DNA of 31,223 nucleotides from a virus: positions 1-31,223 of IMG/VR virus record IMGVR_UViG_3300028800_000245. One strand, written 5' to 3'. The notes under the pieces were generated by a model. The model worked only from the letters and a program-made list of their open reading frames with translations, did no database searches and was not told where the DNA came from. Made by a program: the position numbers and the translations under genes. Position 1 is the first letter of the stretch. Every line of letters starts with the position of its first letter. Below are positions 10,284 to 31,223 of the stretch, piece by piece.

Positions 10284-11162
10284 ATGGATGACCTGTCACC
10301 TGAAGAACAAAAACAATTCGAGCAAATGCAAAAGCAGGAAGCCGAAGAGAAGGTTGTTATCGATGCTGAAAAAGCTGCTCCTGCCGAGAAGATTGAGACT
10401 GTCGAAGAGCCTGTTAAAGAGGCTAAGGAAGTTCCTCTCGCGGCTTTGCAGGAAGAGCGCGAACGCCGCAAGGCAGCAGAAGCCGCGACACGCCAAGCGG
10501 AGCTAAATCAGGCCCGGTTAGACGAACGCCTGAAGATTATCAACGACCGGCTAAATCCTCCCACGAAGCCACGGGAGATTCCCGACCCCGACAAGGATGC
10601 TCTTGGAGCCTTGAAGGCGACTACCGAAGAAATCAAACTGTTCCGCGAGTTCCAGCAACGGCAGCAAGATGAGACACAGCAAAGGAACTATGCCCAAGAC
10701 ATTATGGCCCGCGCTTCGTCTGCTGAAGCCGAGTTTATGAAGCAGAACGAGGATTACGGGGTTGCAAGTGTGTTCCTCAAAAAGTCGCGTCAGGCAGAGT
10801 TGGAGGCCATTGGTAAGCAACCTCTGGAAATCCAGCAAATCCTTACCCAAGAGGGGCTTTTGCTGGCTGACGCAGCATTAAAGCAGGGCAAGAATCCGGC
10901 TGAGCTTATCTATAATCTGGCAAAGTCTAGGGGTTATTCGCGGCAAACAACTGTTGTCGCGGCACAGCCCGTGACGGATGCCGAAAAGCTTGCCAAGATA
11001 GCCGAGGGCCAGAAAGCCAATACCTCGCTCGGAAATGTTAACGCCACGCCTCCAAAACCACAGATGAGCGGCAAGGACTTGCTGGCTATGGACGACGAGC
11101 AATTCGAGAAATGGCTTGACAAGCTTCCTACGAAAGAAAGGGCAAAGTTCCTCGGCGCTTAA
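10284..11162 (+). CDS. Head scaffolding-like protein (292 aa)
   Basis: Strong Shine-Dalgarno AGGAGGG. Highly charged, Glu/Lys/Ala/Gln rich and almost all helical, with coiled-coil segments at about residues 1-30, 40-95 and 115-165. The C-terminus is small, basic and compact ('DDEQFEKWLDKLPTKERAKF'), as in scaffolds whose C-terminal helix docks on coat subunits. It precedes the major capsid gene, the usual position. Assigned by context and composition, not by a recognised family signature. Confidence 0.8.
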   Translation: MDDLSPEEQKQFEQMQKQEAEEKVVIDAEKAAPAEKIETVEEPVKEAKEVPLAALQEERERRKAAEAATRQAELNQARLDERLKIINDRLNPPTKPREIPDPDKDALGALKATTEEIKLFREFQQRQQDETQQRNYAQDIMARASSAEAEFMKQNEDYGVASVFLKKSRQAELEAIGKQPLEIQQILTQEGLLLADAALKQGKNPAELIYNLAKSRGYSRQTTVVAAQPVTDAEKLAKIAEGQKANTSLGNVNATPPKPQMSGKDLLAMDDEQFEKWLDKLPTKERAKFLGA

Positions 11163-11215: not shown

Positions 11216-11410
11216 ATGGCGCTAGAACCGCAAGTTGATGCATTGCTTGATAATGCCACTTTGACCAAGGGCATTGACAATGGCTCTATGGGTCAAGTTC
11301 TGGCGCAACTCAAAATCATCACTTTCCTTCTGCGAGAAGGGCTTGCTGTTAACGTAAGCGATGAAGATTTGACCATGTTCCAGTTGAATAACCCACTATC
11401 CCCACAATAG
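11216..11410 (+). CDS. Small hypothetical head-region protein (64 aa)
   Basis: A weak ribosome-binding context (AGG 9 bases upstream) or leaderless start. The product has one amphipathic helix ('MGQVLAQLKIITFLLREGL') and an acidic tail. It lies between scaffold and a virion protein, suggesting a minor head or assembly role. No family recognised. Confidence 0.6.
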   Translation: MALEPQVDALLDNATLTKGIDNGSMGQVLAQLKIITFLLREGLAVNVSDEDLTMFQLNNPLSPQ

Positions 11411-11419
11411 GAGAACAAA

Positions 11420-12022
11420 ATGCAGCCCACCGGCCTCGTAGGACAAGTAAACAAGATTGCTGATGGCTCTACGAACGTCCAGTTCAAACAGGGTAATCAG
11501 GGCAATGCCATTGTCGATCAGTTGCATGGCAACTGTTACGAGGCCGCGCTCCGCGGGAACCTCTACACGCTTGCCAATCAGGCTGCAGTAACGACGACCG
11601 CTGGTCTTGCCACTACGTTTACCGGGCTTGCTATTGCCAATCCGTCCGGTTCTGGTGTTAACCTCATCCTGCGCCGTTTCTCTGTTGGTCAGGTTGCTGT
11701 TGCAGTTGCAGGTTCGGTAGGATTAATGGCGGGTGCTGGTGCAGCCGCAGGAACCCTTGTCCCGCAAAACTGCCTCATTGGTGGCCCGACTTCCAAGGCT
11801 ACCGGCAGCGCGAGCGCCACCATTGCAACGCCCATCCTGCTTGGAACGTACGGCTCTGTTGGCTCACTTGCGACTACGGGTTATGGCCTTCAGCCGGGGA
11901 TCGTGGTCGATCTTCAGGGCTCAATCGTCGTTCCTCCCGGCCAGTATTTGGCCTCCTACACCACCGCTGCTTGCACTTCAGCGTTTGTATTCGGCTTCGT
12001 TTGGGAAGAGTGCGCGGTATAA
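11420..12022 (+). CDS. Putative virion/head-decoration-like protein (200 aa)
   Basis: Good Shine-Dalgarno AGGAGAA. Ala/Gly/Thr/Val rich, beta-type composition, with central small-residue stretches ('VAVAVAGSVGLMAGAGAAAG'), no charged catalytic motif and a C-terminal 'FVFGFVWEECAV'. Sits directly before the major capsid gene, so a head decoration or minor capsid function is the reasonable inference. The small-residue stretch is not convincingly transmembrane. Confidence 0.7.
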   Translation: MQPTGLVGQVNKIADGSTNVQFKQGNQGNAIVDQLHGNCYEAALRGNLYTLANQAAVTTTAGLATTFTGLAIANPSGSGVNLILRRFSVGQVAVAVAGSVGLMAGAGAAAGTLVPQNCLIGGPTSKATGSASATIATPILLGTYGSVGSLATTGYGLQPGIVVDLQGSIVVPPGQYLASYTTAACTSAFVFGFVWEECAV

Positions 12023-12041
12023 AATAATTCTGGTGCAGCTA

Positions 12042-12070
12042 TTGACTTTGAGAGTGCCGAAAAATTAATA
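12042..12070 (+). promoter_or_regulatory. Putative major capsid gene promoter
   Basis: TTGACT (12042-12047), 17-base spacer, TTAATA (12065-12070); best match of the three TATTGA(C/T)TTT promoters. The predicted start near 12077 would give the capsid mRNA a leader of about 124 bases that carries the structured element at 12113-12193. Confidence 0.65.
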
Positions 12071-12082
12071 TGAAGTTCTGCT

Positions 12083-12101
12083 CATAGGCCAGTTGTCTAT
12101 G
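12083..12101 (+). promoter_or_regulatory. Small hairpin in capsid mRNA leader
   Basis: CATAG (12083-12087) pairs with CTATG (12097-12101) around a 9-base loop, near the predicted 5' end of the capsid transcript. It is short and by itself weak; it may shield the 5' end or belong to the larger fold downstream. Confidence 0.35.
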
Positions 12102-12112
12102 TCTCGCCTCCG

Positions 12113-12193
12113 CTCCTGCGTTATGGACGGTTTCGCTTAATCCCTGCGGTATGGGATTACCAATCGAAACCAGATAACCATAATAGGCAGGAG
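12113..12193 (+). ncRNA. Nested leader RNA structure enclosing the capsid Shine-Dalgarno
   Basis: Four perfectly nested helices: P1 CTCCTGC (12113-12119) with GCAGGAG (12187-12193); P2 TTATGG (12121-12126) with CCATAA (12178-12183); P3 GGTTTCG (12129-12135) with CGAAACC (12165-12171); P4 TAATCCC (12138-12144) with GGGATTA (12153-12159) closing an 8-base loop. Internal loops are asymmetric, with the longer side 3'. P1 contains the AGGAG that serves ATG 12201, so the fold would hide the ribosome-binding site. This is not a terminator (no U run). A cis-acting translational control RNA is the inference; no known Rfam class is recognised. Confidence 0.7.
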
Positions 12194-12200
12194 ATTACTA

Positions 12201-13328
12201 ATGGCCGTCACTTCTTATGGCACTAATGACCCACTCGCGGTAAAGCTCTGGGCCAAGACGCTCAATGTTGAGGTCTTGAAGGCCACATGGGCTTCAAAGT
12301 TCATGGGCGAAAGCTCTGACAACATCATCCAGATCAGGGATGACACCACGAAATCAGCCGGTGACAAGATCACCTATGGCTTGCGTATGCAGCTTTCCGG
12401 TCTTGGCGTGATTGGTGATGGTACATTGGAAGGCAACGAAGAGTCGCTTACGACTTACTCGGATTCAATCGTCATCAACCAGCTTCGCCATGCCGTTCGC
12501 TCTGCCGGTCGCATGAGCCAGCAGCGTGTTCCGTTCAGCATCCGTCAGGAAGCCCTTTCCGGCTTGCGGGATTGGTGGACGAACAGGCTCGATCTTGGTT
12601 TCATGAACCAGATTTGTTGCAATACTGCCGAGTCTAACTATGTTGCGACAGGCGGAACGCAGAACACGGGCCTTCAGGCTCCGTTTAGTCTGCCTAGTAC
12701 CAGCGGTGCCACCGATGTTCATTATCTCTCGATGAATGCCACGGCAGGCGACGAGAACATCACCTCCGCCAATACCATGACATTGACAATGGCCGATAGG
12801 GCCGTTGAACGTGCAACAGGCTCCCTTGGTCTGGGAACCTCGAATGCCGGTTATGCCCCGGTTCGCCCGGTCAAGGTCAATGGCTCCGAATGGTATGTAT
12901 GGTTTTTGCATCCGTACCAGATCACGGACATTCGCACCAATACCTCAACCGGACAGTGGCTCGATATTCAGAAGGCCGCAATGACGGGTGGCGAGGTCGA
13001 GGAAAACCCGATCTTCACTGGAGCCTTGGGTGCATACAATAACGTTATCCTACACAAGGATCAGCGCGTCACAACGGGTGTAAGCTCTGCAACCAGCACC
13101 ACGGCTGAAACCACGGTTCGGCGCTCGGTCATTGCTGGCGCTCAGGCTTGTACGCTTGCCTACGGGCGTGAGTCAGGCAAGGAAAAGTACACTTGGGTCG
13201 AGGAACTCTTCGACTACGAGAACCAGTTGGGTGTCTCGGCTGGCTTGATTTACGGCATGAAATCGACGCAGTTCAACAGTTCGGTGTTCGGCCTGTTTGT
13301 CTGCTCAAGCTACGCCGCTCAGCACTAA
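12201..13328 (+). CDS. Major capsid protein, N4-gp56 type (375 aa)
   Basis: Main shell protein. The opening 'MAVTSYGTNDPLAVKLWAK' followed by 'SKFMGESSDNIIQIRDDTTK', 'GDKITYGLRMQLSGLGVIGD' and 'DSIVINQLRHAVRSAGRMSQ' is the signature of the N4-gp56/DUF4043 capsid family. The 375-residue length fits. Ribosome-binding site AGGAG lies 7 bases upstream and inside the leader stem P1. Preceded by its own promoter and followed within 10 bases by a likely accessory head gene. High confidence in family, good confidence in role. Confidence 0.93.
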   Translation: MAVTSYGTNDPLAVKLWAKTLNVEVLKATWASKFMGESSDNIIQIRDDTTKSAGDKITYGLRMQLSGLGVIGDGTLEGNEESLTTYSDSIVINQLRHAVRSAGRMSQQRVPFSIRQEALSGLRDWWTNRLDLGFMNQICCNTAESNYVATGGTQNTGLQAPFSLPSTSGATDVHYLSMNATAGDENITSANTMTLTMADRAVERATGSLGLGTSNAGYAPVRPVKVNGSEWYVWFLHPYQITDIRTNTSTGQWLDIQKAAMTGGEVEENPIFTGALGAYNNVILHKDQRVTTGVSSATSTTAETTVRRSVIAGAQACTLAYGRESGKEKYTWVEELFDYENQLGVSAGLIYGMKSTQFNSSVFGLFVCSSYAAQH

Positions 13329-28845: not shown

Positions 28846-29345
28846 GTCTTATCCTTTGCGCTGGCAGGGGCGGATTTAAGGGCGCGAATCGCTTCCTCAC
28901 ATTCGATGTAGGCGAGAGCAATATCTTCGTGGTTACCGGGGAAAACCGTAGCGCCTGTGTCGCCTTCGGTTTGGCCATATTGTGTTGCGTGATCTTCCCC
29001 AAGTTTTTGTATTTTCTTAATCGCCTCTTCCAACACCGCATCTCGGTCTGTCGGCCTCACCGAGGCGAGGGCGTCTTGCCCCGCACATTCGGGGCATGGC
29101 TCTATGTCCATCGAAAATTTTCCGTCCTTAACGCCGCTGCCGCCGCATGAAGGGCAGTTTCTTTTCTGGTAATAATTGACAGCATCGCAGACCATTGCAG
29201 CCGTAGTTTTGTCACCATACGGAACGGCCAGCGTTATCATGGTCACACTGCGCTCGTTGTCGATAAGATACATATCGACTTTGCCGCCCGGTAATGACGG
29301 ATTATCGAGCGTTTTCCAGAATTGAGGTCGCCACGCGTTTTTCAT
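28842..29345 (-). CDS. Protein with DnaJ-like CxxC...CxxC zinc motif (167 aa)
   Basis: Start at 29345 (MKNAWRPQFWKTLD) on AAGGAGCAGCT; ATGA overlap with the upstream gene. The middle has CPSCGGSG (Cys64, Cys67) and CPECAG (Cys84, Cys87), the spacing of one DnaJ-type zinc knuckle, without a J domain. The N-terminal part has 'VDMYLIDNERSVTMITLAV'; the C-terminal half has a helix with 'HEDIALAYIECEEAIRALK'. A protein or RNA binding role is possible; unproven. Confidence 0.75.
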   Translation of the reverse strand: MKNAWRPQFWKTLDNPSLPGGKVDMYLIDNERSVTMITLAVPYGDKTTAAMVCDAVNYYQKRNCPSCGGSGVKDGKFSMDIEPCPECAGQDALASVRPTDRDAVLEEAIKKIQKLGEDHATQYGQTEGDTGATVFPGNHEDIALAYIECEEAIRALKSAPASAKDKT

Positions 29346-29992
29346 AGCTGCTCCTTTGGGGGTGCGGGAAGTGGTTGCCAGTGGGTGGGGGCATCTAAAA
29401 TCTCTCTTCCGTAAGACACTGCTAACCAATTTGGGAATGGTTCATGCCAACGAGCATGGAGCAACCCTTGAGAATTTTTATCACTCCCGAAACACAAAAG
29501 AATCTCTGTCCCATCCTTCGGCGCTGTCTCGATAGGTTGCCACTGGCTTGCAAGGGAGGCGGGAGCGGCGGCGTCTAGCCCCCATTGCGCCGAAATATCG
29601 ATGAGGTTCCAAATATAATCCGGCGTATAGTCCAAAACCCATTGCTTAAAGCGTGGATCATCAACCATTGTGCTGATCCTAGCGCGAATTTCCTGTGCTT
29701 GTCGTGAAGGTTTAACTTCTTTCCATTTTTCTTCTGTGAGAGTGAATAAATCTGCCTCTGTTGGCCCATCCGCCCCGCCCGTAACCTCGGCTCGGCTGGC
29801 GATGCGGGTGTTCCATGCGTATTTCGATCCATCGCCTTCGTGTCGATCCGTGCTTACAAAACATAAACATTGTGTGCATTCAACCCAATCGGCGCACGTA
29901 TCTTCACTATCTTGCTGACAATAAAATTTTGCCTTTCCCCCGCAAAACGGACATGGCTTGAGGGTCTGCGCTGGCGTGATTTTGTCAGGCAT
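29342..29992 (-). CDS. Lar-like zinc domain fused to DUF551 (216 aa)
   Basis: Two recognisable modules. N-terminal 'TLKPCPFCGGKAKFYCQQ' with Cys14/Cys17 and later Cys39/Cys42 ('VECTQC') is the Lar-type restriction-alleviation zinc ribbon. C-terminal residues about 151-214, 'WQPIETAPKDGTEILLCFGS' and 'APTHWQPLPAPP', are DUF551, a frequent phage and prophage domain. The linker (70-150) is helical. Lar proteins relieve type I restriction; whether this fusion does so is inference. Confidence 0.82.
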   Translation of the reverse strand: MPDKITPAQTLKPCPFCGGKAKFYCQQDSEDTCADWVECTQCLCFVSTDRHEGDGSKYAWNTRIASRAEVTGGADGPTEADLFTLTEEKWKEVKPSRQAQEIRARISTMVDDPRFKQWVLDYTPDYIWNLIDISAQWGLDAAAPASLASQWQPIETAPKDGTEILLCFGSDKNSQGLLHARWHEPFPNWLAVSYGREILDAPTHWQPLPAPPKEQL

Positions 29993-30692: not shown

Positions 30693-30990
30693 CTCTCTTC
30701 TCCGTCTCGCTGAGGGCTGCGCGGGCCTTCGCTCCGCAATCTTCTTCAATAGGAGCCGGAATGCCTACGCTTCTTCCGTCTGGATAATCACAAACATCGC
30801 CGTTCCAATTCTGCGTATCAGCATAAAACCTCAAAGCCCCCTCCATCACCTGTAGGCGGCGGGAGAGGGTTTCGAGGGCGGCTAGGGCATCAGCGATGTA
30901 TTCGCAATCGTAGCTTCCGCCTATGTGCTTAGCGCCAATTTCTAGCGCAAGTTTGATCGTCTGCACAGGATTGGGGGTTTGAATGGTCAT
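30685..30990 (-). CDS. Small hypothetical phage protein (101 aa)
   Basis: Starts at 30990, overlapping the repeat ORF frame that ends in TGA (ATGA) or 3 bases after the TAA of the alternative frame; no Shine-Dalgarno is visible. 'ADALAALETLSRRLQVMEGA' and 'LRFYADTQNWNGDVCDYPD' are a familiar phage accessory-protein pattern. C-terminal SETEKRDE overlaps the next gene's ribosome-binding site. Function unknown. Confidence 0.7.
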   Translation of the reverse strand: MTIQTPNPVQTIKLALEIGAKHIGGSYDCEYIADALAALETLSRRLQVMEGALRFYADTQNWNGDVCDYPDGRSVGIPAPIEEDCGAKARAALSETEKRDE

Positions 30991-30993
30991 TTT

Positions 30994-31223
30994 TTAGCCA
31001 TCGCCAGAGCCATAGCCATAGCCATAGCCATAGCCATTGCCATTGCCATAGCCAGAGCCATCGCCATAGCCAGAGCCAGAGCCAGAGCCATAGCCAGAGC
31101 CATCGCCATAGCCAGAGCCAGAGCCATAGCCAGAGCCATAGCCATAGCCATTGCCATTGCCATAGCCAGAGCCATAGCCATAGCCATTGCCATTGCCATA
31201 GCCATCGCCATCGCCATAGCCAG
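30994..31223 (-). CDS. Low-complexity repeat protein, partial (Gly-X frame preferred)
   Basis: The repeat is open in more than one minus-strand frame. Frame A encodes G alternating with Y, N, S or D (ending ...YGSGDG, TAA 30996-30994). Frame B encodes (Met/Leu)-Ala repeats, ends AKK at TGA 30989-30987 and overlaps the next start as ATGA. I favour frame A because alternating Gly-Tyr/Ser/Asp/Asn is a known soluble, flexible low-complexity type that I recall from phage genomes, whereas poly(Met-Ala) is not; the ATGA overlap favours frame B. The N-terminus lies beyond the window. Function unknown; could be a spacer, adhesive or phase-separating segment. Confidence 0.5.
   Translation of the reverse strand, partial: GYGDGDGYGNGNGYGYGSGYGNGNGYGYGSGYGSGSGYGDGSGYGSGSGSGYGDGSGYGNGNGYGYGYGYGSGDG
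30997..31223. repeat. Hexanucleotide repeat (GCC-A-T/G-N), at least 37 units
   Basis: About 227 bases of GCC alternating with ATA, AGA, ATC or ATT on the plus strand, with perfect 6-base phase and running off the right edge. Counting units gives 37 plus a partial one. Larger blocks (ATA-ATA-ATT-ATT-ATA-AGA) recur, indicating expansion by slippage and unequal exchange. The contig end inside this repeat may itself reflect assembly failure. Confidence 0.95.

Follow-up and report, generated by a model that had tools for sequence, protein, structure and literature searches.

The window, the whole stretch of DNA analyzed here, is a 31,223-base viral sequence that makes up the entire source record. 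It encodes a P22-like portal protein and a major capsid protein that matches PF13252 (E 7e-75) and the major head protein family phrog_334 (E 2e-84). The features that frame the capsid leader are as follows.

10284-11162, plus strand: probable scaffolding protein, 292 aa
12042-12071, plus strand: sigma-70-like promoter match TTGACT-18-TAATAT, weak (9/12 of the consensus)
12201-13328, plus strand: major capsid protein, 375 aa

The 292-aa product had no match in Pfam or PHROG, and a scaffolding role is probable from its position and its acidic, coiled make-up. In most relatives, a gene of this family comes just ahead of the capsid gene and immediately precedes the leader, unlike in the window, where genes of 64 and 200 aa without family matches (11216-11410 and 11420-12022) lie between the probable scaffold gene and the capsid gene. 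Among relatives, a median of 178 nt separates the capsid start from the gene before it. Three sigma-70-like matches were found in the region, against 0.4 expected, and the leader transcript might begin near position 12078. The idea that every leader has its own promoter was rejected; a TTGACA/TTGAC site at about -180 occurs in a subset of relatives only. Elsewhere in the window, both on the minus strand, are a match to the restriction alleviation protein Lar (29342-29992; PF14354, E 1e-7) and, at the contig end, a low-complexity reading frame that consists almost entirely of Met-Ala/Leu-Ala repeats (30987-31217; MAMAMALAMA...).

Two mutually exclusive pairings, one of them over the capsid ribosome site

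Four nested helices, P1 to P4, had originally been predicted to hide the capsid ribosome-binding site, and all four were found where they had been placed, both in the sequence and in the computed fold. The minimum-energy fold of 12077-12200 consists of exactly these helices and one upstream hairpin (12083-12089/12095-12101), and the capsid AGGAG does lie inside P1. P2, first placed at 12121-12126/12178-12183, is extended in the fold by the pair G12120-U12184. All features of the leader are on the plus strand.

12083-12101, plus strand: first array hairpin, CAUAGGC-CAGUU-GUCUAUG (minimum-energy fold; 28-nt register read from the sequence)
12110-12130, plus strand: switch hairpin of the open state, CCG(C)UCC-UGCGUUAU-GGACGG, loop CGUUA at 12119-12123 (local fold, -7.0 kcal/mol)
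12113-12119, plus strand: P1 5' arm, CUCCUGC (sequence, fold and swap tests)
12120-12126, plus strand: P2 5' arm, GUUAUGG (fold)
12129-12135, plus strand: P3 5' arm, GGUUUCG, which includes the UUCG linker of the array (fold)
12138-12159, plus strand: P4, the last array hairpin, UAAUCCC-UGCGGUAU-GGGAUUA, arms 12138-12144/12153-12159 (sequence and fold)
12165-12171, plus strand: P3 3' arm, CGAAACC (fold)
12178-12184, plus strand: P2 3' arm, CCAUAAU (fold)
12187-12193, plus strand: P1 3' arm, GCAGGAG, with the Shine-Dalgarno (SD) sequence AGGAG at 12189-12193 (sequence and fold)

Chance had been judged an unlikely source of this nesting, and comparison with shuffled sequence bore this out: the fold has an energy of -41.6 kcal/mol, where dinucleotide shuffles average -30.3 (sd 3.6; z -3.16), and 0 of 200 shuffles did as well. 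The observation of a nested fold that hides the capsid ribosome site is confirmed. Opening P1 was computed to cost about 7.2 kcal/mol at 37°C.

The original description of P1-P4 as a single nested stem held only in part, in that the helices exist but form one of two competing states of what is instead a hairpin array. Residues of P1, P2, and the P3 edge are also part of the switch hairpin, which makes the local hairpin and P1/P2 mutually exclusive; when the local hairpin forms, the ribosome site is left free. In the window, by computation, the closed state is far more stable than the open one. The leader has two exclusive conserved pairings, one of them over the SD sequence, as an SD-sequestering two-state leader should.

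Conservation of the pairings among related phages

Capsid homologues at 151 loci, together with annotated phages, gave 134 distinct leaders once starts had been set by script; 110 distinct alpha-clade loci were examined. Alignment of 15 leaders with MAFFT and RNAalifold yielded no consensus structure, because the arms shift register and the loops differ in length. Column-based covariation being unworkable, swap tests were used in place of a covariance model. The main test used 70 non-redundant leaders whose capsids share at least 50% identity; pairing was computed in silico between positions -135 to -38 of each leader and the SD region (-38 to -6), taken in turn from its own phage and from every other one.

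Leaders paired with their own SD regions at -23.1 kcal/mol, compared with -18.7 (sd 0.38) for permuted partners (z -11.6). Six controls (two coding regions, the reversed SD region, coding sequence against the SD region, and equal geometry within coding sequence and within the upstream gene) were null, with z scores from -1.9 to +0.5. Relatedness counts against the detection of a signal in this test, since relatives share partners. Leaders thus strongly prefer the SD region of their own phage to foreign ones, and P1/P2 are therefore kept by compensatory change, the property of homologous leaders on which the prediction had been staked. When the switch hairpin was chosen by its local stem alone, the long-range pairing gave a z of -4.8 (0/20,000 permutations); the same test gave 0.0 for earlier hairpins, -1.5 for the last hairpin, and -0.4 for a coding-sequence control. 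The median cost of opening the SD region was 6.2 kcal/mol, versus 3.8 in chimeras that carried the upstream part of another phage (p 1e-10).

The competing pairing is conserved as well. In 41 leaders selected for the long-range helix and not for the local hairpin, the hairpin around the CGNNA motif had an energy of -6.4 kcal/mol with its own partner and -3.6 (sd 0.32) with swapped ones (z -8.6). Computation thus finds both pairings retained in divergent phages. The swap signal was weaker at 40 to 50% capsid identity (4/20000 permutations) and absent below 40%. A clear long-range helix is missing from a substantial share of alpha-clade leaders, and one relative whose capsid is 69% identical (L001) has array-like hairpins and no predicted long-range helix.

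A hairpin array in 28-nt steps

As a whole, the element is an array in which hairpins recur every 28 nt or so, their loops reading CGUNA and their linkers UUCG. In the window the loop motifs at C12119 and C12147 are separated by 28 nt, the second being the CGGUA of P4; the first array hairpin keeps the 28-nt register and has lost the CGUNA motif. At least one CGUNA hairpin was present in 68% of 93 alpha-clade leaders, against 4 to 9% in control regions, and at least two in 37%, against 0%. Counts of such hairpins in the two 100-nt bins that precede the gene were 68 and 65 on the sense strand and 9 and 12 on the other. The commonest distance between hairpins is 28 nt, and UUCG keeps a fixed phase at -13 to -16. 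On the sense strand only, pairs of hairpins 24 to 33 nt apart were about 235 times denser in leaders (1.26 per kb) than elsewhere (0.005 per kb), and no region elsewhere had an array density like that of the leaders; by these measures the array is specific to its position and strand. An alpha-type capsid (40% identity) preceded by array-like CGUNA hairpins was also seen in Microcystis phage Mae-JY35 (L159), which is recorded on a cyanobacterium, so that the range of hosts or of the array may extend beyond the alphaproteobacteria.

The first reading of the leader had recognized no known RNA class, and Rfam 15 offered none: there were no matches at the gathering score in the window or in 20 related loci, and nothing meaningful at E values up to 10 in 11980-12260. 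The leader is widespread among alpha-clade loci and undescribed in Rfam and in the searchable literature on RNA leaders of capsid genes, on structured RNAs of phages, and on CsrA in phages.

Probable control of capsid synthesis and possible readers of the array

We consider it probable that the leader is a two-state, cis-acting RNA that governs translation of the major capsid protein. The proposal that a translational switch times capsid synthesis survives in so far as the SD-hiding fold is kept by compensatory change; that fold is only one of the two states. The closed state would pair sequence at and just before the SD (P1/P2) with residues of the next-to-last hairpin, namely its loop and 3' arm, so that the last hairpin (P3/P4) is enclosed and the ribosome site hidden. 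In the open state, these hairpin residues would instead refold locally under a CGUNA loop, freeing the ribosome site. The closed state is presumably the default, and an effect on translation would lie in the passage between the two. Something appears to read the CGUNA loops, and a loop-binding protein may open the leader. The loop of the switch hairpin is exposed in the open form only, so a protein that binds the array loops would favor that form; for this reason we rank activation above repression, as somewhat likelier. With the scaffold gene on one side of the leader and the capsid gene on the other, the most likely purpose of the leader is to set scaffold-to-capsid order or ratio.

Clustering of the reading frames of 11 array phages gave nine families common to all. 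Those on the coding strand are, by position, portal, scaffold-like, capsid, and other virion genes; the remainder are unnamed minus-strand frames opposite the portal and similar genes, which we took to be antisense frames. Apart from these unnamed frames the common families look structural, and the scaffold or capsid protein, whose genes flank the leader, is therefore the first candidate for a reader that is phage encoded and as conserved as the array; otherwise a host protein is a candidate. The clustering gave no named RNA-binding protein common to the 11 phages, and among the families near the capsid gene there was no small common RNA-binding protein. We tentatively suggest that steps of a UUCG linker plus a CGUNA hairpin, 28 nt each, form a new class of RNA-recognition array read by the phage scaffold or capsid protein, and that the bistable next-to-last hairpin makes capsid translation depend on how much assembly protein is available.

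A coat or scaffold protein might instead act as a repressor, binding the array, stabilizing the closed form, and stopping capsid synthesis once there is enough. The structural look of the common families, unnamed minus-strand frames aside, fits this possibility, and autogenous control has established precedents in the P22 scaffold and the coat proteins of RNA phages. The CGUNA loop of the switch is paired in the closed form, however, and a loop binder should favor the open one, which leaves repression a doubtful alternative.

A kinetic timer that needs no protein is unlikely. By this account nascent local hairpins leave the site open briefly before P1-P4 stops translation, as in the MS2 maturation leader. 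Folding of successively longer prefixes agrees with such an order of events, in that the local hairpin is present by position 12132 and P1/P2 takes over once 12184-12194 has been made, but this is minimum-energy folding of growing pieces and not a kinetic simulation. Hairpins outside the switch also keep their CGUNA loops, UUCG linkers, and 28-nt spacing, which a timer would leave unexplained.

Improbable, too, is a role outside translation, in transcript stability or processing, in termination or antitermination, or as a DNA site. Hairpin arrays can serve such ends, but there is no terminator-like site (a stem followed by a U run) in 11950-12260, the stems vary freely while pairing is kept, which argues against a DNA operator, and the covariation is aimed specifically at the SD region. 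An RNA thermometer, also among the triggers first considered, is very improbable: a nested stem does hide the ribosome site, but the model cost of opening the SD sequence, 9.1 kcal/mol at 15°C, is still 6.7 at 42°C and too high throughout, and the array and its loop motif would be without a role. That the structure is accidental or left over from coding sequence has a negligible chance of being true; the single-sequence fold has a z of only -3.2, but the permutation tests hold in 70 leaders, 28 nt, the period of the array, is not divisible by three, and the leader has no conserved reading frame beyond near-identical contigs.

If the switch reading is true, breaking P2 should raise capsid output and restoring the pair should lower it; if the loops are read, changes to CGUNA that leave the stems intact should abolish control. 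At the RNA level, there is for the most part no explanation of how double-stranded DNA phages set the quantity and order of their scaffold and capsid proteins.

Other leaders stand before the capsid genes of a distant sister group. A csrA homologue lies about 265 to 550 nt upstream of the capsid gene in twelve beta/gamma loci and in phages DC1 and PEp14, and a conserved GCGCANGAGUGC hairpin is found 35 to 78 nt before the capsid start in beta/gamma loci (L124-L144) and in L158 and L160, with csrA upstream. This suggests that phage CsrA acts on the GCGCANGAGUGC hairpin and so controls capsid translation in the sister group. The csrA that adjoins the capsid gene in JC1 has been listed as a moron gene, its benefit unknown (PMC9144972). 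CsrA may do the same job at the same place in the sister group, which would explain why csrA is carried. In Bartonella loci (L117, L118, L120, L121, and L141), the array is replaced by a terminator-like CCGGCUUUAAGCCGG hairpin followed by a T run, about 20 to 50 nt before the capsid start.

CsrA was rejected as the reader in the alpha clade; PF02599 was detected in two sister phages and was missing from the window, from 8 viral contigs, and from two records of alpha-clade phages. CsrA/RsmA control likewise uses hairpins near the SD sequence, but the alpha-clade loops are CGUNA and lack GGA. Riboswitches and T-box-type leaders are also bistable and sequester the SD sequence in one state, whereas the capsid leader has no ligand pocket or Rfam match, and its repeated hairpins suggest a protein ligand. 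The lambda cIII mRNA, whose switch involves RNase III and magnesium, is likewise a phage mRNA with two exclusive folds, one of which hides the ribosome site, but it is a single element without a hairpin array and regulates a lysogeny gene. The coat operators of the single-stranded RNA phages MS2, Qbeta, and PP7, at which coat protein represses replicase, resemble the leader as conserved-loop hairpins beside a ribosome site through which a structural-protein operon is controlled; they are single hairpins with other loop motifs, whereas the capsid leader has two to four hairpins in a 28-nt register. HK022 put and lambda nut/boxB, hairpins of phage RNA whose set loops are likewise read in cis or by protein, act on RNA polymerase at the starts of operons; the capsid leader, in contrast, pairs with the SD sequence of a gene inside the late operon.
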